Below, piece by piece: positions 46,654 through 48,963 of a stretch of 64,000 bases of DNA. The translations under genes and the position numbers were made by a program. Position 1 is the stretch's first letter; the number at the start of each line of letters is the position of its first letter. The stretch spans positions 165,430 to 229,429 of the IMG/VR virus record IMGVR_UViG_3300028676_000005. One strand, 5' to 3'. Origin of the DNA: a virus. Under the pieces are notes generated by a model that was not told the DNA's origin, ran no database searches, and saw only the letters and a list, made by a program, of their open reading frames with translations.

Positions 46654-48963
46654 CTACTGCATCGCGAGGTCAGATTGAAGTACTCTAAACGATTTCTGTT
46701 TAGCTGCAAACGCTACCCGTCGTTTGTCCATACACTCGCCATGTTTGGGAATGTCCACACAGACTGGGAAGATAAAGCGCGCATCACAACGACCGCCAAA
46801 TTTACCTAACAGGTTACGAACACGACCAGCCATCTGTTTGTTCCGTTGTGTGGAGAAAACAGTGTGGAAGGAAATGGCTGTGATCAATCCTGGGATGTCT
46901 TTACCGGTACCGCAGCTACCTGGGGTGGTTATCAGATTTTCGTGCTCCATGTACTTCTTAGGAGTCTTTTTATCCAATGTTCCCAGGAACGTGTCGAAGT
47001 CTTCACCCGGGTAACGCTCCCGGAACTTCTCTTTCATAAGCAGCGCCATTTCAATCAGAGTAAAGAAGAAGATACATTTAGTACCAGGCTCCTTTTGATC
47101 CAAATAAAACATACGATACATTTCGTCGGCTAACTCAAAGTAGAAGTTAGTCAACGCCTCGCTCTTAAGTATAGACTTCTCCAGTGCGATATCATTGTAA
47201 CTACCGAACTGTTGAGATTGAATCTTGTACTTACGAACATCCATCTGATAAAGATAAGCGACAAAGTCAATGTAGTTCTCAGGTTCTGGTTCTTTAAGCC
47301 GGATTGCGATTGGTGCCATCCTGAGGTACATCTTGTTCATGAATGGATCGTCACCTTTTAAGGTAGCCGACAGCATGAACGTTTTAGCTACGTTACCATA
47401 AAGCATAGACAAGCATACTTCATGGAACGACTCATGACTCTCGTCGATCACACGCAGCCCAGGGGCTATCTTAGCGATGACAGTGTCAAGGCATGGTAAG
47501 TTACCATCCTTTCGCTGCGCCCGCATGTACGTGCTTATACGAGTAATAGGAAGGATAATTAACTTAGGCTCGATCCGCCCATCATTAATAATGTCTCCCA
47601 ATCTTGGTAAATCAGTAAACTCCCAAATCAATACGTCTTTTGCAGCAACCTCAAACATTTCTGCTAGGTCTTTCTGCCAGATAGGGATGTAACGTGGCTG
47701 AATAGTAATCAATGTTCGCTTGCCAAGTTTCATCATGGCAAACAACGACATATACGTGTTGTGTGTCACAATGAAATCGTCGGTAATGTAAAGCCGACTT
47801 GGGTGAGCAATAGAAATGCAACGAACTGGCTCAGATATTTTAAGATCCTCGATTGACATGATTGCCAACTCGGGAACTTCTAGTCTGACTAACTCACCAG
47901 CACGCTTCTTGTAAATTGGATCACTAAACAGATCTTCTGGTCGTGAGTACCAGACGGTCATCCAATGACCCGTGTCACCGTCTTCATGACCGTGATACAG
48001 CGCTTTACCGCCTAAACTGCGAACAAGGTATTGTACTTCTTCTAATTCTTCCTTATCGTCACTACGGAACCCTAGGTAGCGATCGTCAATAACCATGAAG
48101 CCATTAGTCATCAATGAACGCAATTTGTTTAAACGCTGCTTGTTACTTCCGTACCGATGATCGAAACCTTCTTCAATATTCGGCACACGTTCTGATTTGC
48201 ACAGTGGTATTGTTACACCAGACAGGCGCCCTTTAGTGTCTTGTAGCTCCAGCAACATCCTGGTACTAAAGACCTTACGGAAATCACCAGGCTCAGCCCC
48301 AGGGGCTTCTTTGCCATGATGATCAAACACATCCCACATATGGTCGAGTCCCACATCAACAGACCGGCCATCTTCAAACTTTACACGATACAACTGTTCC
48401 GTGTCTTGTGGGTACACACCGGTAACGTAAGTGACCGATCCATCCCAGGCGATTACTTTATCGCCTTTAACCAATTCGCCCATGGTAGTCCAGCCACCAG
48501 GGATTTTTACTTTGGCATACAACGGCTGAGATTTACCACCACCAGTAGGAGCCGCGTTAACTTTCAACGCACCTGGCTTTAACTGATAGTCAATCCATTC
48601 ATGTTGGTGCTCTCGAGGAGTCTTAAACTGCTCTTTGATGGCAAACTCTACGTCTACCCCAACAATCTCTGGTTCTTTCTTTAAAACGATCCTGGCTTCG
48701 TTATAACCACGATACTTGGCCAGGTTGATCAGATCCTTGAGGATCGAAAGCGGCATGCGGTATTCAGTGCGATCGTTATTAGTGCGGGCAAAGACGTGCG
48801 TCGGTACCCAGCGCTTTTTACGACTGTTAGGGATTGCCTCTTGACCGAACTTGGTTAATTCAGTTCGACAATAGGGTCTTAATACTTGTGCTTCAAACTC
48901 ACCGTAGAAATCCTTTACGATGATGTAGTTGTTTGCAACACTTATAGTTGCGACAGAACGCAT
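46654..48963 (-). CDS. SF2 DNA helicase (UvsW/RAD-type) interrupted by an intein
   Basis: 769 residues as translated; about 511 after protein splicing. Extein motifs: Walker A AAPTGGGK|T (141-144, then T403), DEAH-type box VIDESH (507-510), motif III SAT (532-534), a GTGKDIPG segment near 686-692 and motif VI QMAGRVR (710-716). This is a complete superfamily 2 core, likely used for branched-DNA or replication-fork remodelling. An N-terminal ~120-residue domain precedes it. The intein (residues 145-402) splits the P-loop between K and T, so the helicase is inactive until splicing. It follows the beta-prime C-terminal gene after a hairpin-containing spacer. Confidence 0.82.
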   Translation of the reverse strand: MRSVATISVANNYIIVKDFYGEFEAQVLRPYCRTELTKFGQEAIPNSRKKRWVPTHVFARTNNDRTEYRMPLSILKDLINLAKYRGYNEARIVLKKEPEIVGVDVEFAIKEQFKTPREHQHEWIDYQLKPGALKVNAAPTGGGKSQPLYAKVKIPGGWTTMGELVKGDKVIAWDGSVTYVTGVYPQDTEQLYRVKFEDGRSVDVGLDHMWDVFDHHGKEAPGAEPGDFRKVFSTRMLLELQDTKGRLSGVTIPLCKSERVPNIEEGFDHRYGSNKQRLNKLRSLMTNGFMVIDDRYLGFRSDDKEELEEVQYLVRSLGGKALYHGHEDGDTGHWMTVWYSRPEDLFSDPIYKKRAGELVRLEVPELAIMSIEDLKISEPVRCISIAHPSRLYITDDFIVTHNTYMSLFAMMKLGKRTLITIQPRYIPIWQKDLAEMFEVAAKDVLIWEFTDLPRLGDIINDGRIEPKLIILPITRISTYMRAQRKDGNLPCLDTVIAKIAPGLRVIDESHESFHEVCLSMLYGNVAKTFMLSATLKGDDPFMNKMYLRMAPIAIRLKEPEPENYIDFVAYLYQMDVRKYKIQSQQFGSYNDIALEKSILKSEALTNFYFELADEMYRMFYLDQKEPGTKCIFFFTLIEMALLMKEKFRERYPGEDFDTFLGTLDKKTPKKYMEHENLITTPGSCGTGKDIPGLITAISFHTVFSTQRNKQMAGRVRNLLGKFGGRCDARFIFPVCVDIPKHGECMDKRRVAFAAKQKSFRVLQSDLAMQ
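47758..48531 (-). mobile_element. Intein in the helicase P-loop, with degenerate homing-endonuclease region
   Basis: 258 residues (145-402 of the precursor). It starts at Ser145 (SQPLYAKVKIPGGWTT), with a block-A-like GDKVIAWDG, a block-B-like VDVGLDHMWDV whose His replaces the usual T-x-x-H context, and ends with block F/G ISIAHPSRLYITDDFIVTHN followed by Thr as the +1 nucleophile. Between them, LRSLMTNGFMVIDD at about 281-294 and EVQYLVRSLGG look like one worn LAGLIDADG repeat. At 258 residues it is longer than a mini-intein (~135) but too short for a full two-motif endonuclease. Splicing should be intact; homing is probably lost. Confidence 0.85.

Follow-up and report, generated by a model that had tools for sequence, protein, structure and literature searches.

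A probable class 3 intein with a dead half-endonuclease in the Walker A loop of a jumbo-phage helicase

Results

An interrupted helicase gene in an Elvirus-like phage

The DNA analyzed here, called the window, is a stretch of 64,000 nucleotides of IMG/VR record IMGVR_UViG_3300028676_000005 and forms the final 64 kb of a 229-kb viral contig. An open reading frame on its minus strand, at 46654-48963, encodes 769 aa and contains the features below (window coordinates, strand, description; a slash within a P-loop or splice-junction motif marks a splice junction).

46654..48963, (-), helicase precursor gene; 769 aa, predicted spliced product 511 aa
48532..48963, (-), N-extein, residues 1-144; its last residues are the Walker A sequence AAPTGGGK
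47758..48531, (-), probable class 3 intein, 258 aa, residues 145-402; recognized from empty sites, signature residues, PDB and Foldseek matches and an AF2 model
48493..48531, (-), Block A, SQPLYAKVKIPGG; position 1 is Ser, not conserved among related inteins
48328..48369, (-), Block B, GRSVDVGLDHMWDV; His64 (B:10) and Trp66 (B:12, the W of WCT), both invariant in 61 inteins
47875..48177, (-), remnant of half an endonuclease, about residues 119-219 of the intein; the first LAGLIDADG half has been deleted and the second is present without its catalytic Asp
48085..48126, (-), worn LAGLIDADG motif 2, KLRSLMTNGFMVID; LLQGL(L/M)DTDG in full-length relatives
47782..47829, (-), Block F, PVRCISIAHPSRLYIT; Cys238 (F:4, the C of WCT), the predicted initiating nucleophile, invariant in 61 inteins
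47818-47820, (-), Cys238 codon, within Block F
47758..47781, (-), Block G, DDFIVTHN; Thr256 (G:5, the T of WCT), penultimate His257 and terminal Asn258, invariant
46657..47757, (-), C-extein, residues 403-769; its first residue, Thr403, is the Walker A Thr and the predicted +1 splicing nucleophile
47431-47445, (-), Walker B motif DESHE, within the C-extein

PHROG identifies the host gene as phrog_16, "DNA helicase" (E 2.2e-37). PHROG matches to a DnaC-like helicase loader, a DNA primase and terminases fall largely on the intein and were discarded as not indicating homologous host genes. A helicase profile run against PDB sequences found no helicase and gave only a weak match, to FANCM (E 0.036), and the host protein was therefore identified by its fold. 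The AF2 model of an intein-free orthologue (pLDDT 89.2) matched XPB/TFIIH (1.4e-16 to 1e-13) and T4 UvsW (2.9e-12) in Foldseek, and the strand-loop-helix surrounding APTGGGKT in this model is consistent with a true Walker A motif. With a RecA-like fold, Walker A (GGGK/T) and Walker B (DESHE), the host protein is, as judged from the modeled fold, an XPB/UvsW-like SF2 helicase.

The helicase gene adjoins multisubunit RNA polymerase genes (phrog_3015, 3295 and 2962), and the nearest isolates to the window phage are Elvirus EL and its relatives; GXNNE2 is classified as Chimalliviridae, Elvirus. One mark of the Chimalliviridae (nucleus-forming phages), multisubunit RNA polymerases with a helicase orthologous to that of Elvirus, is present, and by sequence the window phage is an Elvirus-like jumbo phage.

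GenBank records (L105 and others) label the helicase variously as terminase large subunit, DarB-like antirestriction protein, DOD-type homing endonuclease and replicative helicase, and the intein-free helicase of GXNNE2 is still annotated "terminase, intein-containing". The mixed annotations probably arise from similarity driven by the shared intein, which would also account for the frequent mis-annotation of the helicase as a terminase. A separate peculiarity concerns the intein-free orthologues L130, L132, L133, L134, L159 and L155, in which the residue following the Walker A Lys is Gly in place of Thr/Ser (GGGK-GYM, GVGK-GWL), giving an unusual P-loop.

The insert is precisely absent from intein-free orthologues

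The insert is preceded by ...AAPTGGGK and followed by TYMSLF..., which places its junction between the K and T of the Walker A loop. Four intein-free orthologues from IMG/VR contigs (L004-L007; 509-511 aa) align over their full length with the window helicase (identities of 66-74% for the N-extein and 76-82% for the C-extein) and lack exactly the 258 residues. The empty site is exact at the protein and the DNA level, with a seamless DNA junction, and removal of 258 residues from 769 leaves 511, exactly as many as the empty homologue L004 has. The preliminary description had placed an intein at 47758-48531 inside AAPTGGGK/T, and the absence of exactly residues 145-402 from L004-L007 bears this out to the base.

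In a sequence comparison with PDB, the insert scored best against the inteins 6rix (1.3e-9), 6riy (3.4e-9) and 6bs8 (1.6e-8). Structure prediction of residues 145-402, one of the checks that the preliminary description had proposed, yielded a confident AF2 model (pLDDT 92.9, pTM 0.90) whose Foldseek matches are inteins: the 6rix, 6riy and 6bs8 entries together with LAGLIDADG inteins, with the class 3 entries at ranks 1 and 3-8 (seven of the top eight). The Hint and LAGLIDADG profile searches proposed alongside it did not deliver, as Pfam and NCBIfam searches of the 769-aa precursor gave no Hint, no LAGLIDADG and no confident helicase match, and searches of the whole phage genome with LAGLIDADG_3 (PF14528) and HNH_3 found no endonuclease while control genomes gave matches. 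The base composition of the intein (GC 0.46) and exteins (0.44-0.45) does not indicate a recent arrival.

A chance origin of the insert's features is excluded. There is practically no prospect that the insert is an ordinary inserted domain, for which its intact reading frame is the sole point, as such a domain would break the Walker A motif, the insert carries splice motifs and matches inteins in PDB and Foldseek searches, and homologues lack it precisely.

Signature residues point to class 3 splicing

Class 3 splicing starts at CysF:4 and needs no position-1 nucleophile (PMC4031507; PMC5222942), and the WCT triplet, B-block His and HN end have been described for Mycobacterium smegmatis DnaBi1 (PMC6195587). 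In an alignment of 61 inteins the invariant columns include H64, W66, C238, T256, H257 and N258. Position 1, by contrast with these, is Ala in 40, Cys in 4, Ser, Phe and Pro in 3 each, Gln, Glu and Leu in 2 each, and Met and Val in 1 each. The window intein has Trp at B:12, a Cys residue at F:4 and Thr at G:5 before His-Asn, and its closest solved relatives are class 3. It does have a Ser at position 1, yet this residue is not conserved in its relatives, consistent with the "not required" status of position 1 in class 3 inteins (PMC5222942). Because the WCT signature is complete, position 1 is variable and class 3 inteins need no nucleophile there, the first nucleophile is most likely Cys238, with Ser1 a bystander. 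Of the splice-junction residues that had been described as looking intact (Ser1, penultimate His, terminal Asn and +1 Thr), His257, Asn258 and the +1 Thr are in place, but a nucleophilic role for Ser1 does not fit the WCT signature and the variability of position 1.

The Ser at position 1 is also what a class 1 intein would offer, with Ser1 forming the N-terminal ester and Cys238 incidental. This reading is very unlikely, as all three WCT residues are present and do not vary among the 61 relatives, position 1 is Met in the closest relative (the EL helicase intein, hel1) and Ala or other residues elsewhere, Block B reads G-x-x-H instead of T-x-x-H, and the best structural matches belong to class 3. 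We conclude with high confidence that the window harbors a class 3 intein whose endonuclease is dead.

One helicase site in four states

The helicase site is found in four states: empty, with a full-length intein of 344-364 aa, with a half-endonuclease intein of about 248-258 aa, and with a mini intein of about 197-231 aa. Intein presence and absence require at least 12 changes on the host tree (58 rows). In the host-gene tree the window lies among intein-free phages (L126, L121, L125 and L124), followed by L129, which has a 254-aa intein. In the intein tree the window intein is sister to that of the EL helicase (98/96); full-length alleles lie nearby, and L129 and its kin lie elsewhere. Strict co-descent of intein and host gene would place EL outside a group formed by the window intein and those of L129, L131 and others; this topology is mildly rejected (p-AU 0.018, a test limited by long branches). 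With the host-gene topology rejected at this level, the window intein has probably been exchanged horizontally or goes back to the sorting of old alleles.

A single origin of all half-endonuclease inteins is rejected (p-AU 1.3e-6), as they do not form one clade; changes between the full and deleted states number at least 8 on the intein tree. The edges of the deletions also differ, with the L129 clade retaining DPYxxG and DRI around the gap and the window and EL inteins not. By these sequence comparisons, the half-endonuclease state arose several times. The deposited records of Salmonella phage SA002 (L106), phage vB_PQ1 (L097) and the HHBS8 polymerase gene (L114) show the intein-bearing genes split into several ORFs, which reflects either sequencing frameshifts or real splits.

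The preliminary description saw in the insert a former mobile element, which these data support, but one that had become fixed in an essential gene. Fixation does not hold, since the intein is absent from the closest host-gene relatives, and a homologous intein distinguishes two Elvirus strains, EL and GXNNE2, whose helicase flanks are 97.7% identical; GXNNE2 is precisely without it. EL (L226, 44708-50170) has adjacent inteins, about 1.8 kb apart, in the RNA polymerase beta' gene (rpo, endonuclease motifs intact) and the helicase (hel1, dead); GXNNE2 (L225) precisely lacks both within DNA that is 97-99% identical and retains its terL and hel2 inteins. Co-conversion with the polymerase neighbor is a plausible route for the dead intein in Elvirus, and the joint absence of the pair from GXNNE2, which keeps the hel2 and terL inteins, is what it would produce. 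That such hitchhiking is what lets the dead hel1 intein persist there is nonetheless quite improbable, as the pattern comes from a single intein-minus haplotype and would leave persistence in the window phage unexplained: its beta' subunit (669 aa) has no intein, so the route is inapplicable to it. Elsewhere in EL, the putative transposase gene ORF037 (L226, 8046-9188) coincides with an alignment gap relative to both GXNNE2 and HHBS8 and is apparently an EL-specific insertion.

Two further inteins in the window genome

The genome to which the window belongs has three inteins at K/T sites, in two helicases and the terminase. Those outside the helicase gene described above are as follows.

G000:C1:76911-77660, second-helicase intein (L095), 250 aa, GSGK/A...THN/T; class 3-like, LAGLIDADG motifs ruined
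G000:C1:22355-23239, terminase large subunit intein (L096), 315 aa, QQGK/F...THN/T; class 3-like, LAGLIDADG motifs ruined

Most of the near-complete relatives searched contain inteins in ORFs of matching size. Insertion at the K/T position of P-loops in phage ATPases was already known (PMC5050341). The three K/T inteins, found in the window genome and in several relatives, invite the idea of a conditional switch, in which a redox, metal or DNA signal would slow splicing and thereby time helicase activation, possibly gating two helicases and the terminase together; oxidative stress does inhibit the P-loop class 3 intein DnaBi1 (PMC6195587). By analogy such control may be imagined, but we regard it as unlikely, as close relatives manage without the hel1 intein and a homing element would choose the same sites for their conserved DNA.

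The half-endonuclease remnant and its conservation

Full-length alleles of the helicase intein (in ZK_P1, FishSpeaker, D6, AerS_266, Proteus 10, LucasX, Haymo and others) have the motifs (M)DPYxLGxLLGDG and L(L/M)DTDG. In the window intein motif 1 and its half-domain are wholly absent and motif 2 reads LM-TNG where full-length relatives have L(L/M)DTDG, so that the two motifs with catalytic acidic residues of an active LAGLIDADG endonuclease are lacking. Within the focal set, motif 2 keeps its DTDG in 11 of 11 full-length alleles, whereas every allele with the deletion, those of the window phage and EL included, has lost it. A motif count over all collected inteins, made with regular expressions and hence approximate, is close to two-state: inteins of at least 334 aa mostly have both motifs and nearly all have motif 2, whereas those of up to 315 aa have lost the motif 2 DxDG in all but L017 (299 aa) and L019 (273 aa). 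The latter two are shortened class 3 inteins whose motif 2, LLDTDG, is intact and whose deletions may be recent.

The remnant contains no frameshift and no stop, and its pLDDT in the AF2 model is mostly 84-97, falling to about 80 near residue 215. Selection on it was measured in a sister lineage with 252-254 aa inteins (L136/L137/L140 and others) and in two Elvirus strains. In the sister lineage, codon-aligned Nei-Gojobori dN/dS of the remnant is 0.026 among four close contigs, 0.083 for L136 versus those and 0.203 among L147/L148/L167, compared with 0.068, 0.100 and 0.156 for the N part of Hint in the corresponding comparisons and 0.07-0.09 for the exteins, values that are rough as pS is high (0.44-0.69). 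These ratios indicate that the dead half-endonuclease of the sister lineage is clearly constrained by purifying selection, similarly to the splicing domain. For the window intein, a search for closer relatives found only an identical contig and EL, at 42% identity. Between window and EL the remnant is 36% identical and the Hint parts 52% and 58%, indicating that the remnant diverges faster but is far from random.

The simplest reading is that the remnant most likely has a structural role in the splicing fold, by analogy with the degenerate endonuclease of MjaTFIIB, which is reported to be needed for efficient splicing (PMC6801210), a precedent set by one archaeal intein. Alternatively, the half-endonuclease may be neutral baggage without a role, carried by an intein on its way to a minimal form. 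This is possible, if not what we expect, and for the window lineage itself it is a serious rival, as the selection figures come from the sister lineage. The faster divergence of the remnant between window and EL would suit it, as would the smaller alleles (197-231 aa) among the relatives, which show that in other backgrounds the intein can do without much of the remnant; the 197-203 aa alleles, however, appear to retain a piece of a helix-(A/S)xGG element. Against neutrality also stand the low sister-lineage dN/dS (0.026-0.203), the 251-254 aa length retained across a clade with marked extein divergence, the retention of the second half by several independent lineages, and the undamaged frame and confident model. 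The single worn LAGLIDADG-like repeat noted in the preliminary description is real and is the second, with its Asp lost; simple decay fits poorly with purifying selection in the sister lineage and the confident fold.

Discussion

Proposed mechanism and significance

We infer splicing and its chemistry in the window phage from the sequence. Cys238 of Block F would attack the peptide bond Lys144-Ser145, the N-extein would be transferred to Thr403 (+1), Asn402 would cyclize, and an acyl shift would connect K to T, restoring the P-loop; the products would be an active helicase of 511 aa and the excised 258-aa intein. Before splicing, the precursor would not be expected to bind ATP normally. With its first LAGLIDADG half gone and the catalytic Asp missing from the second, the intein would be unable to home by itself, leaving its movement to ordinary recombination between co-infecting phages. 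The half-endonuclease would persist because the splicing fold has come to include it, linking the two Hint lobes as a brace; for the window phage we lean only slightly towards this brace role, the least certain part of our best explanation.

An intein whose endonuclease has become useless is expected to lose that domain and shrink to a minimal splicing domain. What is new here is the recurrence of a half-endonuclease state and its conservation, not the location in a P-loop. A broader proposal, which we consider doubtful, is that class 3 splicing in jumbo phages has repeatedly, and in independent events, come to depend on a domesticated dead half-LAGLIDADG domain, such that a non-mobile yet selected intein would gate ATP binding by the helicases and, through the other K/T inteins, by the second helicase and the terminase. 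The natural series of alleles at one site makes the role of dead endonuclease domains in inteins directly testable, and phage class 3 inteins provide material for protein engineering.

Comparison with known systems

The best sequence and fold matches of the window intein are M. smegmatis DnaBi1 and M. chimaera DnaB1 (6bs8, 6rix, 6riy), with which it shares the WCT triplet, B-block His and HN end; like DnaBi1, it is inserted in the P-loop of a helicase. DnaBi1, however, is 139 aa long, has no endonuclease domain, starts with Ala and resides in DnaB, whereas the window intein has Ser at position 1, 258 aa, half a LAGLIDADG domain and an XPB/UvsW-like SF2 host. The helicase intein of Pseudomonas phage EL (ORF040), its sister in the intein tree, occupies the same gene and K/T site and likewise has the first endonuclease half deleted and the catalytic Asp lost; it is 248 aa long, 42% identical to the window intein and has Met at position 1. 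Unlike the window phage, EL has an intein in the neighboring RNA polymerase gene as well, and the endonuclease motifs of that intein are intact. The full-length class 3 helicase inteins of Raoultella phage VB_ZK_P1, Shewanella phage FishSpeaker and Aeromonas phage D6 share the site and the splicing motifs but are 351-364 aa long, with GDG and DTDG motifs, and are presumably active homing endonucleases.

Outside this gene, the mycobacteriophage TerL1-a inteins represent the classic K/T P-loop insertion in a phage ATPase (PMC5050341), although their host is a terminase rather than a helicase and they belong to a different phage group. The Methanococcus jannaschii TFIIB intein is similar in that a dead endonuclease domain is kept, and efficient splicing there is reported to need it (PMC6801210). 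That intein is archaeal, while the window intein keeps only half of the domain, for which we propose a comparable role.
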